NCBI GenBank assembly: GCA_950295325.1
Contig: OX485803.1
Coordinates: 59,907,554 to 59,971,553, forward strand
Reading direction: 5' to 3'
Length of the DNA: 64,000 nt
DNA from: Polytrichum commune
Lineage: Eukaryota > Streptophyta > Polytrichopsida > Polytrichales > Polytrichaceae
Shown one piece after another: positions 2,545-29,507 of this stretch. Made by a program: the position numbers and the translations under genes. The notes under the pieces were generated by a model. It ran no database searches. It was not told the origin of the DNA and saw only the letters and a list, made by a program, of their open reading frames with translations. Position 1 is the first letter of the stretch. Each line of letters begins with the position of its first letter.

Positions 2545-2814
2545 TAAAAACCACCCCACAAACAAATGGAAACCTAACAAAATAACAAACCACACACCTA
2601 AAGGCAACACATACACACACTTCTCATCTATACATTTAGGAAACATAACACCCAATCCTTCTACCATACCCAAACTCGTACCCATAAAACACCAAAAAAC
2701 AAATAAAAAACACTCAACCCATACCCATACCAAAACCTCAAACCCCACCTTAAACTTTGCCTCAAAGCACAACTCCACTTCCACACAAAATACAAAATTT
2801 CACCCAAAAACAAA

Positions 2815-4629
2815 ATGGCCTCGGCCTACCGGCCTCGCCATAAAACTAATAGCAAATACCACTTCATAAACAAATGGAAACCTAATGCAATAACAAATCA
2901 CATAACTAAGAACAACACACATGCACATTTCTTTCCCGAACAGTTAAGAAACATAACACCCGCCCTACCCAACCTCTTTACCACAACCAAATTCATAGCA
3001 ATAAAATACCAAAAAATAAATAAGAAAAAACCAAAAATACTTCACTTCCGTGGATACTACTTCATCAACAAGTTAACCCTACTACAATGTGGAGACATAA
3101 AACCCAACCCTGGACCAATGCCCAATATTCTCCGGACACACCCCGCTACACACAAAAAGCGAGCTAAACTATATTTCATCCCAAACACAATAAAACTACA
3201 ACATGAATACCAACACATAGCAAGCACATTTGCCCCCATACTCAAGCACACATACCCCCTACACCACCAGACAATTACTACATACCCACACCTACACCAA
3301 TACATCATAACACAAAGTCATTATCCACTAACCCATATGTTATATGCTCTTACCATTACTATACATCCCTCAATAAACACATGCAACAACATACTAGCCC
3401 AACCCCACATTTATCACTTTAACAACATATGGACAAACACATTATTCATCAGACTAGCCAACCTTTCCAACCCCCCCGAGCGACACATTCTAACACCACA
3501 CCCACACACAACATTTACAAACAATAACCATGATATAATACACCCCAAAAACTCAATACATAAAGAATTATATGAATTTATCCACAACCAAGAGAGCACA
3601 CTTACACCCACCATTCTTCAAAGTAAATTTCCCTTTGTCCCAAATCAATTAATAATTGAATCACTCCATTGCCTAGAGAATATTAACGAATACTCACACC
3701 CGCCCCCACCCCCAGTTACCCCCACACCAGAACCTAGAACCAACACTAGCACCAATCACGAAACAAATATAATAACTTGGAATGCCTCCTCACTTAATAC
3801 CGCACTACCAAACTTACAAAGTCTTATCAATAACTCTCTAAACAATACAGCAATCATACATATCCAAGAAACTAAATTAACAGCAAACAAATCCACAAAA
3901 TACATACAGAACCTATTCTTTGAATTCAAACTCATCTTCAACAACACACATGCTCTTACACGATGCATACAACAAAGATTGCCCTACACCCCTGGAAGAG
4001 GCGGCCTACTCACACTTATCCACAACAAGTATGCATTCCCTGGAAATGTCACCAAAATTCCCACGCTAGCAAACATCTCCCCGTATTTACAAATAATCAA
4101 AATCAATAACCACCCCTCAAGACCATGGCTAATCGTACACATGTATATGCCCACACACGTAGCAGACACATGCCTTATCTCATTCCTCAAAACCGAAATC
4201 ACTAACCAAATTACTACACATCCAAACCACATATACACATTATGTGGTGACTTCAACAGAGATATTGCACTCCGAGGAAGACATACTAACAACACTTACA
4301 CCCCTCCCCAAGAAGAGGATCTACAATGGAAGCACTTTACCACATCTCTCAACCTTGAATACATACCAACTAACATCAGTCTTTCTCGACAAGGGGGCTA
4401 TAATTACACATCAACAAGTCTAATAGACGGTTTCTACATCCACTCTCCAGACAACAACAAATTTACTTCCACTACAAACACAACCATGAATCTAAACTCA
4501 GACCACTACCCAGTCACCTTACACATCCCACACAACACACTTATAGCCAGACCCCCACCCCCCACAAACATATCACCAAATAGAATACTAAATCCGATAC
4601 CACTAGAAAACCTAGAAAACTTAACATAA
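2815..4629 (+). CDS. LINE ORF: 2A-like peptide plus AP-type endonuclease
   Basis: A 604-codon open frame starting MASAYRPRHKTN. Residues ~88-101 are TLLQCGDIKPNPGP, a close match to the 2A ribosome-skipping motif. The APE/EEP endonuclease lies at about residues 318-575: ITWNASSLN, IQET (metal-binding Glu), a YMP motif, LCGDFNRD (Asp/Asn), LIDGFYI and SDHYPV (catalytic Asp-His). In LINEs this enzyme nicks the target to prime reverse transcription. The frame stops at 4629, where the RT frame continues at once in another phase, so a frameshift in an A-rich stretch near 4620 probably split one EN-RT polyprotein. All the recognisable catalytic motifs are intact. Confidence 0.75.
   Translation: MASAYRPRHKTNSKYHFINKWKPNAITNHITKNNTHAHFFPEQLRNITPALPNLFTTTKFIAIKYQKINKKKPKILHFRGYYFINKLTLLQCGDIKPNPGPMPNILRTHPATHKKRAKLYFIPNTIKLQHEYQHIASTFAPILKHTYPLHHQTITTYPHLHQYIITQSHYPLTHMLYALTITIHPSINTCNNILAQPHIYHFNNIWTNTLFIRLANLSNPPERHILTPHPHTTFTNNNHDIIHPKNSIHKELYEFIHNQESTLTPTILQSKFPFVPNQLIIESLHCLENINEYSHPPPPPVTPTPEPRTNTSTNHETNIITWNASSLNTALPNLQSLINNSLNNTAIIHIQETKLTANKSTKYIQNLFFEFKLIFNNTHALTRCIQQRLPYTPGRGGLLTLIHNKYAFPGNVTKIPTLANISPYLQIIKINNHPSRPWLIVHMYMPTHVADTCLISFLKTEITNQITTHPNHIYTLCGDFNRDIALRGRHTNNTYTPPQEEDLQWKHFTTSLNLEYIPTNISLSRQGGYNYTSTSLIDGFYIHSPDNNKFTSTTNTTMNLNSDHYPVTLHIPHNTLIARPPPPTNISPNRILNPIPLENLENLT
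3076..3117 (+). other. 2A-like ribosome-skipping peptide
   Basis: Encodes TLLQCGDIKPNPGP. The canonical 2A consensus is D-(V/I)-E-x-N-P-G-P; here D, I, N, P, G and P are all kept and Lys replaces Glu. Hydrophobic residues lie upstream, as in known 2A sites. 2A peptides are established in several animal and trypanosome non-LTR elements. The next codon after the final Pro is Met. Activity cannot be judged from sequence alone. Confidence 0.65.
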
Positions 4630-6962
4630 TATTCTTCGAAGAAAACTCTACAAAACTAAAGGAACTTACCACACTACTAGAAAACCATCAATACTTAACC
4701 CCTGATCAATGGCAAGAAGCTTGCACTTCATTAGATAACATTATTAACAAAATTTCAGAAACCATTGAAAAAACTTGTAAAGCCACCCCACTACCAAACC
4801 TCACATACAGAACATCACAACAAGGAAGATTTCTACTACGAAAACTAGCTAAAGAGTGGAAAAAATACCTTACCACATACCACTTCGTTAGGAAAACTAT
4901 ATACATTACACAACACGACCCACACTGGCTAACCCACCCCATCCTAAACGAAATCCGAAATCACCAATATGTAAGTATCCCACACCCACCTACAACAACC
5001 GCATCTACTGATGAATGGATTGATGCCATAGCTGTCATTGCAAAAATTGCCAACAAAGAAGCCAAGAAAATCACCACCAAATATACTAAAGATTGTATCC
5101 TAAAAGTTGTATCAAAATACTGTCAGATGTATGAAAAGAGTCCCAAAAAAATAAACAGAAAAATCTTCAAAAACTTCGAAACCTCACCTCTGGACTCCAT
5201 CATAGACAGACACAACAATATGCTAACTAATCTTAAGGACATCGCATCAGAAATATACACACAACAATCCATCAGCAACCGTCCAACAGTCCCCACATGC
5301 CACTACCAAAATATCCACCCACCACACTGCACATGCGGAGTAAGGCAATACCCATGGCACGACTTAGACGGATACACAATTGATAAATGAGGTGAACCCC
5401 AAATTCCCTTACATACATACTTTGACCAAGAAACCTACGACTTCTGTCTCAAAAATCTAGGAAATAACAAAGCCCCAGGCCTTGACAAAATTCCCAACTC
5501 AATTCTAAAAAATATGCCCCCACGTTTCCACAAACTACTCTTCCTATTCTTTAAACAATGCTACAAACAAAAACAAATTCCCGCATCATGGAAAACTAGC
5601 CTAACAGTTTTATTATATAAAAAAAGAAATCCATCACATCTTACAAATCACAGGCCTATTGCACTAGCTAACACCATATATAAACTTTATACAAGCACAT
5701 TAACTTCTATATTATCCGCATATGGAGAAAGACACCAAATATTACATGACAGTCAAGAAGGATTCAGAGCAGAAAGAAGTACCTCTACACAAATTCAATT
5801 ACTTATCGCAGCACTAGAAGATGCAAGATTCACGAATCAAGACATATTCCTACTCTATATTGACTTCAAAAATGCCTTCGGCTCCATTGACCATGCCAGA
5901 CTCTTAGCCATAATGAAAGATCTAAGATACCCCACTGACTCCATACACCTCATAGGAAACATATACGCACAATCCTCCACCATATATATCGGGGAACACT
6001 TCGACAAAACCTTACCAATCCCCATCCAAAGAGGTACAATACAATGAGACACTCTCAGCCCATACTTATTTATAATATTTTTAGAACCCCTCCTTAGATG
6101 GTTACAACAAGGGAACAATGGATATACTTTTGGTACATCTAAAATCAAAAACTCATCAGCAGCATATGCAGATGACCTAGCGGCAATTGCCAACAAACTA
6201 TAGTGACTACAAACACAACTAAACAAGTTAGATAAATTATGTGAATGGGCAGGAATGGACCTCGGAATACCCAAGTGTGCAGTGACTGGATGCCCAAACA
6301 AATCCAAGATGAACCCCATAACCTTCAAGGCCCTAATACAAGCCACTAACATAAATTATCGAAACCAACCTATACCAACCCTACATTAACACGAACTATA
6401 CACCTATCTAGGAATAATCCTTGCATCCTCACTCAAATGGAAAACACAAATAAATACCATTACAGCTAAAGTAATCAAACAATGTCAAGCTCTCGTTTCA
6501 TGCCCAGCAACTATGAAACAAAAATTCAATATGGCAGATACTGTCATACGTGCTGGAATAGCATACAGCTTCTACGCAGTACCATATTCCACACCGGCTA
6601 TAAAAAAACTTGACAAAAAAATCATAGCACTCCATAAAACGATATGCGGAATACCCAAATGTACATCTAACATTGCTACACAACTCCTGCATAACCTATT
6701 CGGTATCGAAACATTCTCACTACAAAATGCTTATCTAAGATGTATTGGAGAACAACTACAAAATGCCCTAAACGATAAAAGAAGAATTGGCATAATCTAT
6801 GCCGGTCTAATACAACACATACTTGCCAAATATGGAAGATCTAAGAACATAACCCGCATTAAGTACCACCACTGTGTCAAATCACCTATCACTAGAACAC
6901 TATTCTTATTCAAGCATAAAACCGGAGTCCACCTAAAAAATACAATAAACAACTCCTATTAA
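4630..6962 (+). pseudogene. LINE reverse transcriptase, broken by stops
   Basis: Continues the endonuclease ORF in a different frame. RT blocks are clear: KAPGLDKIP (~5473), NHRPIAL (~5646), QEGFRAERST (~5755), YIDFKNAFGSIDHA (motif A, ~5855), a motif B reading RGTIQ-stop-DTLSP (~6030), YADD at 6165-6176 (motif C), IPKC (motif D) and YLGI (~6400). Interruptions are TGA at 5388, 6045 and 6204, TAG at 6201 and TAA at 6387. The stop at 6045 sits where motif B normally has Gly. After ~6930 the coding sense moves to another frame (LLNPSPLETAWTQEAQ...) for about 180 bases and then fades. The order and motifs are those of LINE RTs rather than LTR or group II enzymes. Confidence 0.85.
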
Positions 6963-7368
6963 ACCCATCCCCACTCGAAACTGCGTGGACTCAAGAAGCA
7001 CAAGAACTACACGGTCTAAGCCCAAACACTTCACTTAAGTTACTACACAAATTGCTAGTACATAATATAATAACACTAGACCAAATAACATGCCTAATGA
7101 CACCACTCTAATGAACTCAGACGAATTTAAAATCTACCACTCCAACCCTTCTAAACTCATCAAAAGTGCACTAAACATTGCTAACCAACTGTTTTGTCAT
7201 CCACCTTGTGACTAGGAATGCCCCCTAACATGTCAACACCACCATCCACCACGATCCCTCAAAACCAAATACACAATAAGACACCACAACATTCTACCTC
7301 ATTTACCGACTCCCCCTATACACCCTCCAAACCCTCTCATCCCCCATCTACCCCCTCCTCCCAACAAC

Positions 7369-10140
7369 ATGATTAAAAATCCCCGACAATTTCCCATACA
7401 CAAAATACTCGATCACAAACAACGACAATCCAACGACCCTAACGGAATAAAAAGAACAGTCACATCATACCTATGCCAATGGACTACAACAAATAACAAT
7501 ACATATCATAAATGGCAAACCCAAAGAGACTTATACCCCTATTGTGATGCCAACACAAGCAACCACAACACAAACTTACTCTCCCAATACTACACGAGAA
7601 AACAACACAAACATTTCTTAAACATTATTAATGCCTACTTCTCCATAGAACAACAAAGAGACACAAGATACGTTACACCTACCACAATTATCCCACTGGC
7701 ACACATTTCTATTAATGAATGCAATCCAAAAAATGACATCGAAACAAATTCTGACACTATCCAAATACAATTTGACGTCGCTCACATATACGAGGATAGT
7801 GGCCGACACCTCATCACCATCCCAAAAACTAGATTAATATGGTTATGACAACAATATCAACAAACAAAACATTCCACTCACGGACTAGAACCACCTACCC
7901 AATCATTCGAAACTGAAATTGTATGGCTATACCAAAGATACAAATACCGCATTCCAAAAAATGACCCACTCAAACGAGCCTAACATACAATTCCAACCCC
8001 AATATTAGATCTCCTAATAACCACATTTAATATCAACCACTCATATTTCTCATCCCCAGTTACATGCCCCACACAATTCATCCAATTCTACTCACCATTC
8101 TCACGAGACATAATATTTGGATCCCTCGGGAAAGCGTTTGACCATAAATGGCAAGGAATTGGCTACGCCCACCCCCACAACGCAACGGAATTACAATAAG
8201 CTATCCATTGGACTCGCCTGGTAGCCAAAAACGACCCATATACAATCACTATACTCATATCACCGGACACTGATTGGTACAAAAACTTCAACCCATACAT
8301 AGGTCCATTCCAAGACACGCACGTTATCACCCACTTTGCCGCCGACACGATTGCATATGAGGAACCCACAATACCCCCAGAATTCAATACTATAAGGAAA
8401 GAACCATCTACCATACAAATATTTTGCATCCACCACCAAACCAACAACATTGGTACCTACGAACAAATAAAGCTACTCAAGGACCTAGCAAATAATCTCC
8501 AAATAACACAAAGTCACACCCAAATTGCACCACCCACCCCTTCAAATACCACTGTTAACTCCAGTAAAAAATGGTTTAAATTAAACTACCCACAAATAGT
8601 CGTACATAACACCACACTTGCCCCACAACTCCCAAACTACCAGACAAATCTACCGCTAAAATTCCACCCACAATTTAACTACTACACTGACGGTTCCTTT
8701 ATAAAACCCAAAGAAATTGCCCCTGGAGTATGGAGAAGAGAAAGAGCTGGATATGGTATTTATAGCCCCAAAGGTTTAAATATTACCAAAAGACTACATG
8801 GACATCAAAACATATTACGCGCAGAAATGATAGCTATACACAAAACACTAAGAATAATCAATACACAATATCCTAACGAACCCGCATTCATATTCACAGA
8901 TAGTTGAAACGTATTATACCTACTCAACACACAAATTAAACACCCCACCCTTCATAATAGCCACCCAGACCAAACCACACTTGCCTCCATGGTACAAATT
9001 CTTCAACACCGGATACAACCAATCACATTATACAAAGTTAGAGCACACGTCAACATTGACGGCAACAATAAAGCAGATAAACTAGCAAAAGAAGGATTAG
9101 AATTAGAACACATAATTGCCACCCACCCATATGAACATGCCCACGCCACCCCATACTATTACCAAAAGGACGTCTGGGCCTCGATGATAGACGTTCTAGA
9201 CAAAGGCCCAGTCAGAGTCTTAGAGAAACAAATTAAAAAATATGATAGGGAAAATAACCTAGCAATCATGGCCACACAAACCCCCAACACTTGTAAATGG
9301 ACAGAAAATGTAGATATAGACAAAGAGCTGTTGAACGAATTTTGGGAAAATCCTTCAATCACCGACAAACAAAAATCATGCCTCATTAAATTCCGAACAT
9401 GAACTTATATGGGCAATGCTAGGAAACAACTGTTCTTCGGCTGCCAAAGATATCCCTCTATTACGTGCCCCATATGTAACTCAAACGAACCAGATACATG
9501 ACTACATGTACTACTTACATGTAAACATCAACATATACACTCACTTCGAGTTAAAAGACATAACAAAGCAGTTGGGGAAATTAGGAAACTCCTAATCTCA
9601 TCCGAAAAATCCCGATGCTTTACTCTCATGAATGCTGGCACCTTCAATAACAATCCTCAAGAAAACACAATTCCCAATTGGCTACTACCCTGCACATGTG
9701 GTACACAAAGATGCCACTGTAACGCAAGATTTAGACCTGATATCCTTTGCGTTAGGGGACTACCATATCAAAACGACCCTCCCGTAGACATTGACCCTAA
9801 CCTCACCATACAATTTATTGAATTCACCTACTGCAATGACAGATTCTCCCCAGAAGCAGTTGAAGCAAAAAATAACAAATACAGACCACTAATTGCTAGT
9901 ATCGCTTCCAGAGGATGGAAAATTGAACCACTTATTGTCATCACTGCTGGTGCCAGAGCTACTGCCCACATCCCATCTATGAAATTACTCGAGACTAATT
10001 TCAAAATGCCTATGCCTACCATCAAAAATACATTTAAAAATATTAATACCATCGCAATACAATATGCCATGTCCATTCTCCTCCACAAAAGGAGAATAGA
10101 AAACCACCAACCGCTTCCCCTCACTCTAGACCCCCCATAA
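7369..10140 (+). pseudogene. LINE C-terminal region: unassigned domain, RNase H, CCHC finger, RLE nuclease
   Basis: One frame broken by TGA at 7846, 8905, 9400 and 9499 and TAA at 7981 and 8197. About 8040-8375 encodes a conserved-looking domain (FYSPFSRDIIFG, KWQGIGYAHPH, DTDWYKNFNP), possibly related to Dam-like methyltransferases of other retroelements, with the catalytic NPPY replaced. RNase H follows: YYTDGSF, ILRAEMIAI, IFTDS, and VRAHVNIDGNNKADKLA. A finger C-x2-C...H-x4-C lies at 9466-9522, then RHNKAV. The last domain has RPD (9733), IEFTYCND (Glu at 9820), KNNKYRPLI and VITAGARA, matching the layout of R2-type restriction-like endonucleases. The frame ends at 10140, just before the 3' tail. 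Confidence 0.75.
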
Positions 10141-10352
10141 CTCAAAACTTAAAGTTACATGTAAGGGTCACTGGGTATAATGTTAGGCGTGGTTCCGTGT
10201 TACTGGTCTCTTGTGTCTAAAGTGTCTACTCTCGAAAGGGGGGAGTAGATCTTTTCCTCCATACCCTTGTCCTGTGGGCATGGGATTGGAGGTGGATCGA
10301 ACAGACATTTAATTCACGTCGGTCTCCTCCGGAGACCGAAGTTTTTTTTTTT
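10141..10352 (+). promoter_or_regulatory. LINE 3' tail with terminal hairpin
   Basis: Non-coding end of the element. Bases 10320-10327 (CGGTCTCC) pair perfectly with 10331-10338 (GGAGACCG) around a 3-base loop, followed by AAGTTT and a T run. In LINEs with specific 3' recognition, such a stem-loop is what the RT binds. The stretch 10231-10346 aligns with the tail of the SINE at 29365-29483. Confidence 0.65.
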
Positions 10353-29123: not shown

Positions 29124-29134
29124 TTGTTGGTACC

Positions 29135-29496
29135 GGCACCACGGGCCTTGGCTTGGTGGTTAGGGCTCATGGCTCCCAATGAGGAGGTTGTGGGTTCTAT
29201 TCCCCATGCCGGCGTGGTGCTCACCACCTTAGTCCACCCAACTATGGTTGGGGGGTCCTTGGACCTTGTTGTATGGGGACCTTTGGGGGGATACCATGTC
29301 CGGTATCTTCAAGGCACTAGTGGCTAGCTAGGAACTAGTATAGTGTGTCACTATAGTGCCCATCCTCGAAAGGGGAGAGTAGTATTGTTCCAATGTCCCC
29401 TTGTCCAGTGGGCATCGGGTCATTGGCATTACGAACGGACACTTTATTCACGCCGGCCCCTTGCTTGAAAGGGGTTGGAGTTTCTATCTATCTATC
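29135..29496 (+). mobile_element. tRNA-derived SINE with a LINE-like 3' tail
   Basis: A 362-bp element flanked by perfect 11-bp duplications TTGTTGGTACC at 29124-29134 and 29497-29507. The head carries internal pol III boxes: A box TGGCTTGGTGG (29149-29159) and B box GGTTCTATTCC (29193-29203), 44 bp apart as in tRNA genes. The tail 29365-29483 aligns with the 3' tail of the LINE at 10231-10346 and ends in a stem-loop (29453-29462 with 29469-29478, two G-U pairs), then a (TCTA)n run. SINEs encode nothing and rely on a LINE enzyme that recognises a shared 3' end. Confidence 0.85.
29149..29203 (+). promoter_or_regulatory. Internal pol III promoter of the SINE (A and B boxes)
   Basis: A box at 29149-29159 fits TRGCNNAGYGG with one change; B box at 29193-29203 fits GGTTCRANTCC with one change. 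Spacing and distance from the 5' end match tRNA-derived SINEs. Confidence 0.75.
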
Positions 29497-29507
29497 TTGT
29501 TGGTACC

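Follow-up and report, generated by a model that had tools for sequence, protein, structure and literature searches.

What copies the SINE at positions 29135 to 29496 of this stretch of the Polytrichum commune genome, and is its partner the LINE that lies in the same window (the whole 64,000-nucleotide stretch of contig OX485803.1 analysed here, C1:59907554-59971553 in our numbering)? Our analysis points to a real and well-supported pairing of SINE and LINE based on a structured tail, in which the LINE named by the original prediction is a cousin of the partner. We put at about 85% the probability that the SINE spreads by mimicking the structured 3′ tail of putative dual-endonuclease LINEs, its likely present driver being a subfamily that we call LINE-B and not the window's own LINE-A. 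The SINE and its parts are as follows.

29124 to 29134, plus strand: 5′ target-site duplication TTGTTGGTACC, a perfect 11-bp repeat
29135 to 29496, plus strand: complete SINE copy, (TCTA)n tail included
29149 to 29203, plus strand: A-box/B-box-like pol III pair in sense orientation (pattern match)
29347 to 29496, plus strand: LINE-related 3′ tail, identical to LINE-B copy L086 in 127 of 150 columns
29390 to 29426, plus strand: inner hairpin, outer stem CCAATG/CATTGG (29390-29395 with 29421-29426) and apical stem TGTCC/GGGCA (fold and covariation)
29453 to 29478, plus strand: terminal hairpin, CCGGCCCCTT at 29453-29462 with AAGGGGTTGG at 29469-29478 (fold and covariation)
29479 to 29496, plus strand: AGTT end point, then TCTATCTATCTATC
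29497 to 29507, plus strand: 3′ target-site duplication TTGTTGGTACC, a perfect 11-bp match to the 5′ copy

The element is present as predicted, with its perfect duplication on either side, and it is short, dispersed and flanked by target duplications. The genome searched comprises 408 Mb in 64 contigs, seven of them large. Contig C8 bears, one after another, rbcL (by Pfam, with PDB matches), a tRNA-Arg(CCG) gene and an open frame taken to be accD, which marks the host as a green plant and probably, from this plastid-like order, as a streptophyte. A search with the window SINE gave 1777 candidates, of which 40 were scored; these 40, its own copy included, match at 94-100% identity over nearly the full length, and 20 of them, aligned with the window copy, make up the 21 copies examined. 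A 37-base stretch of the SINE body has 966 genome matches at up to three mismatches, against none for the reversed control. The A-box/B-box pattern matches the window only at 29149-29203 and in 0 of 100 shuffles, although it was drawn up post hoc, with the site already seen, and leaves one B-box base free. Neither ARAGORN nor Rfam reported a tRNA in the SINE head, and no full tRNA fold was found there. Judged from sequence, 29135-29496 appears to be a pol III-type SINE, probably transcribed by pol III and probably still active.

The LINE in the window, of type A, is laid out as follows; the domain order of its coding part is taken from its relative L106, a LINE-B copy.

2707 to 10140, plus strand: decayed LINE-A coding part in several frames, with 2A-like motif, APE, RT, PCIF1-like stretch, RNase H and RLE-like end
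10141 to 10346, plus strand: LINE-A 3′UTR and tail (43 matches reported; 599 candidates, 40 scored)
10256 to 10292, plus strand: LINE-A inner hairpin, CCTCCA/TGGAGG, stems 10256-10261 with 10287-10292 (fold and covariation)
10319 to 10339, plus strand: LINE-A terminal hairpin, TCGGTCTCC/GGAGACCGA (fold and covariation)

The SINE tail had been said to align with the 3′ end of this LINE. Homology of the two is clear, with a local alignment score of 73 (500 dinucleotide shuffles, mean 20, maximum 33) and 87 of 117 columns identical (74%) over SINE positions 29344-29456, but by local alignment the similarity goes no further than the foot of the terminal hairpin (29456). The two terminal hairpins agree in position and shape and not in sequence. 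As the original prediction stated, both stems pair, CCGGCCCCTT with AAGGGGTTGG in the SINE and CGGTCTCC (10320-10327) with GGAGACCG (10331-10338) in the LINE.

Closer relatives of the SINE tail exist elsewhere in the genome. A protein search with the C-terminal (RLE) part of the LINE gave 5199 candidates, of which 150 matches were scored, some of them in open frames of up to 2625 codons. Downstream DNA was read for 20 of these 150, mostly chosen for their long open frames; 19 belong to a sister subfamily, LINE-B, and one (L102) to LINE-C. All 19 LINE-B copies have a tail with the SINE-type terminal stem and (TCTA)n, and the similarity of the SINE to copy L086 (85%) continues through the terminal hairpin to the end of the repeats. 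The LINE-B inner hairpin, as a 39-base pattern, has 170 genome matches at up to three mismatches, and a general tail pattern has 865; the reversed controls gave none in either case. The general pattern led to families C, D and E, so that LINEs with such a tail, whose further copies the prediction called for, are now represented by six subfamilies, A, A′, B, C, D and E. In protein, LINE-C is 80-82% (L121) and 77-79% (L122) identical to A, A′ and B, whereas LINE-D and LINE-E stand at 55-63%. In the tail alignment, identity to the window SINE is 85.4% for LINE-E, 82.9-83.7% for the LINE-B rows and 62.6% for the window LINE.

Target duplications of at least 7 bp flank 20 of the 21 SINE copies (11 of 420 mismatched flank pairs), and duplications of at least 9 bp flank 18 (2 of 420), although two of these 18, L049 and L050, sit in TA repeats and have weak duplications. 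Sixteen of 20 duplications measure 11-14 bp, and all 20 begin with T. Every one of the 21 SINE copies ends in AGTT followed by TCTATCTATC, that is, (TCTA)n, with the duplication beyond the repeats; all 19 LINE-B copies end in AGTT and (TCTA)n as well. Type-A and A′ LINEs end in ...GGAGACCGAAGTT followed by TTA-like repeats (27 of 39) or TCTC/TCTTC-like ones (12 of 39), and in no case by (TCTA)n. The expectation that SINE and LINE copies end at the same base is therefore borne out at the AGTT point, and for the repeats with LINE-B but not with type A/A′. Because the duplications flank the repeats from outside, in SINE and LINE copies alike, the repeats are part of the insertion, and we rejected the reading of them as pre-existing target sequence. 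Five strongly 5′-truncated LINEs were checked: four belong to type E, and the fifth, a type-A copy, is hardly more than a tail. Four of the five have duplications of 10-12 bp that begin with T, against at most 7 in 20 mismatched flank pairs. Duplications of similar length that start with T thus make SINE and truncated LINE insertions look alike. For L106, the LINE-B copy with a long frame, no target duplication was found and the 5′ end was not located. At L016 and L017, the end of one LINE-A tail lies directly 5′ of a second LINE-A 3′ end, possibly a product of template jumping.

Which LINE supplied the tail has more than one candidate answer. It is possible, though we hold it the less likely course, that LINE-E (the L078 type) gave the tail and drove the SINE, with LINE-B merely a relative. 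LINE-E has a tail about as close to that of the SINE as LINE-B does and the same AGTT and (TCTA)n end, but its lead over LINE-B is about 2 points, and the one LINE-E coding region read, that of L111 with L116, is split among several frames, whereas LINE-B has long open ones. Both subfamilies may have been drivers. A similarly tentative alternative is that LINE-B took over its tail and 3′UTR from LINE-E or the SINE by recombination, giving tail and coding part different histories. In protein, LINE-B shares 85-88% identity with A/A′ and 59-63% with D/E, but by its tail it falls with LINE-E and the SINE; in the coding tree B is nested with A′, and C lies outside. AU tests did not reject a shared history, however, whether the coding part was placed with B beside D/E (p 0.139) or the tails with B beside A/A′/C (p 0.577), and fast tail change on the A/A′/C branch accounts for the pattern without a swap. 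The window's LINE-A as the SINE's own partner is very unlikely and was rejected, since its tail, although homologous and built on the same two-hairpin architecture, shows far lower identity to the SINE than those of LINE-B and LINE-E (82.9-85.4%), has another terminal stem and belongs to a type with (TCTA)n in 0 of 39 copies. The predicted partnership itself is supported by the homologous tails, the AGTT end, the (TCTA)n repeats and the T-starting duplications, probably with LINE-B (or LINE-E) in the place of the neighbouring LINE. A LINE that neighbours a SINE in one window need not be its true partner.

Both tails fold better than most of their shuffled versions, with z-scores of -2.72 for the SINE and -2.63 for the LINE; of 200 shuffles, none did as well as the former and three as well as the latter. 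The inner hairpin is a second covarying hairpin in both, beyond the terminal stem-loop of the original prediction. To follow the fold across copies we used a regular expression that collected 91 tails, 54 of them distinct after end correction; exclusion of an inverted one (L071:189-310:+) left 53. This set is without the copies that the expression missed, such as L009, and as copies were chosen by similarity to the window or by pattern matches, frequencies in it are biased. Through the inner hairpin the 53 tails align with hardly any gaps; a few rows have insertions of one base.

Covariation over these tails supports the claim that structure is kept while sequence changes, with some measures not outstanding. 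RNAalifold predicted 31 pairs, 13 of which carry double compensatory changes. Of 1642 cells, 96.2% pair in the predicted structure; sliding the partners by 1-3 columns brings this down to 33-56%. Cells with double changes number 230 (89 in shuffles) and the covariation score comes to 0.391 (0.196 in shuffles), values that none of 500 shuffles reached. The count of pairs with a double change was as high in 73 of 500 shuffles, and that of further pair types in all 500; for a two-hairpin structure of our own, in which 89.7% of cells are paired, the same two measures were matched by 1 and 497 of 500. Since relatedness inflates such counts, we mapped the changes on a tree. Fourteen double branch events keep a pair, whereas the six slid controls give 0, 2, 3, 1, 0 and 0, although the tree was built from the same columns and its event cost is biased towards double events. 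A large part of the double change falls on one branch, which separates types A/A′/C from the rest. Single changes that keep a pair number 25 (slid controls 9-21). Pairs differ in how they vary. At columns 35/65, A-U, C-G, U-A and G-U are all seen; at columns 108/125 of the terminal stem, 15 of 53 tails lack the pair; and the three pairs nearest the loop of the inner hairpin, columns 45-47 with 53-55, form in 53 of 53 and hardly vary.

Could the tail be recognised by its primary sequence alone, the hairpins being incidental? The words GAGTAG, TGTC, GTGG and TTCA hardly change from one of the 53 tails to another, and pairs are broken 26 times on the tree, at least as often as in any slid control (14-26), but the stems vary on both sides and yet stay paired, and slid pairings lose most of the signal, so we regard this as a very improbable reading.

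We therefore return to mimicry of a folded LINE tail as the preferred explanation. As the SINE ends in the same folded tail as the LINEs, it most likely borrows their copying enzyme. The 3′ end of the SINE RNA would present a copy of the structured LINE tail, and the LINE protein would recognise that fold, probably through conserved loops and unpaired words, which the stems keep in position while their own sequence drifts freely. The protein would then nick the target, target-primed reverse transcription would begin at AGTT and the short TCTA repeats, and the SINE RNA would be copied in the same way as LINE RNA. A broader and more doubtful proposal is that one multi-hairpin tail acts as a shared recognition module for families of dual-endonuclease LINEs about 40% apart in protein, such that one SINE family could be, or could have been, moved by two or more LINE lineages, and tails may pass between LINEs.

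The coding capacity of LINE-B fits such a role. The protein of L106 has 2576 residues from its first ATG and contains DIEPNPGP, which we take to be a 2A-like motif. Pfam scans of full-length LINE proteins missed the APE domain; scanned alone, it matched PF14529 in four of four domain sequences (best E 5.2e-8) and PF03372 in two of four (best 3.7e-7), that of L106 falling under the curated cut-off (21.8 vs 27.4 bits), and it matched exonuclease III with E 0.005 over 42 residues. The RT of L106 matches PF00078 (E 2.5e-29), and its closest PDB proteins are R2 (E 6e-30). The C-terminal stretch contains CX2CX9HX4C, RHN and (R/K)PD...EF...K..KY motifs; this zinc knuckle and PD...E...K series are presumably those expected of a restriction-like endonuclease (RLE). 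Pfam and PDB profiles gave nothing useful for that region, so the RLE assignment is at the level of motifs. The LINE thus resembles the Dualen/RandI type and is a putative dual-endonuclease element, as had been proposed, with APE recognised by Pfam when the domain is taken alone and an RLE-like end recognised by motif. L106 also contains an RNase H domain (PF00075, E 4.6e-13), a domain reported for Dualen/RandI in the part of PMC4640811 available.

Several further features of the LINE proteins stand apart from the question of the tail. A PCIF1-like stretch (PF12237, E 3e-10, above cut-off) occupies residues 1822-1917 of L106 and about 7870-8160 of the window; its match to PCIF1 structures is weak (E 0.086). 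At the position of NPPF, which we take to be catalytic in PCIF1, L106 has HPHN, and 14 rows from the six LINE subfamilies have HPHN, YPHN or HPQN. Among the literature matches listed, there was no report on PCIF1 in retrotransposons. Repeated protein units (YRPRHK and alike) lie 5′ of the 2A-like motif, at 357-2900 of the window and in the N-terminal part of L106, in several copies and frames. On the minus strand of L106:8213-9988, a 591-aa open frame lies 5′ of the big LINE frame and is perhaps an ORF1.

Pairs of this kind have a precedent. In Chlamydomonas, according to the part of PMC3747384 available, the tails of SINEX-1, -2, -4, -5 and -6_CR were matched to RandI/Dualen LINEs, short non-poly(A) repeats, (ATT)n and (CTTT)n, stand at the 3′ end, and SINEX-5 and SINEX-6 are of tRNA type. 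The kind is therefore known, and the present pair is a clear new example. Compared by description, it is like the Chlamydomonas ones in that a SINE tail matches that of a RandI/Dualen-like LINE and ends in short non-poly(A) repeats, and unlike them in its host, its (TCTA)n and a multi-hairpin tail with covariation counted. Among the literature matches listed, no other plant or streptophyte report of such a pair appeared; most subscription papers and the Repbase reports lay outside that search. For the stringent-type LINEs ZfL2-1 and ZfL2-2 of zebrafish, the available part of PMC4176376 describes a 3′ stem-loop that is needed, with a stem that can be exchanged if the fold is kept and a loop that is specific. 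The moss tails, read from covariation, likewise vary in stem sequence and keep their fold, but whereas the zebrafish elements belong to the L2 clade and have a single stem-loop in each tail, the moss tails have two to three predicted hairpins over about 120 nt, and their LINE also has an RLE-like end. A variable but paired 3′ stem is also found in the conserved hairpin of plant ME1 LINEs, as described in the same part of PMC3747384; these belong to the L1 clade and are not dual-endonuclease elements.

Hundreds of SINE copies, more than 100 LINE-B copies and six LINE subfamilies form a natural data set, with which one can ask how a two-endonuclease LINE chooses its RNA. Stem sequence and terminal loop vary across it, while there is almost no change in GAGTAG, TTCAC, the GTT end or the pairs nearest the loop of the inner hairpin.

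The LINE 3′UTRs hold other arrangements. In those of LINE-B and LINE-D a tRNA-like block lies 5′ of the tail, its B-box-like word pointing antisense, in 10 of 12 loci checked (L086, L087, L091, L092, L094, L098, L081, L073, L076 and L085). The block is homologous across LINEs of about 60% protein identity, and ARAGORN reported no tRNA in the five such loci submitted. The LINE-C 3′UTR of L071 (C1:35921300-35922450) carries an inverted SINE-type tail just 5′ of its own type-A tail. Finally, part of the LINE-E 3′UTR query also stands alone elsewhere in the genome, and at C7:14798445-14798755 and C3:42317052-42317400 it forms close inverted pairs, like a small inverted-repeat transposon.
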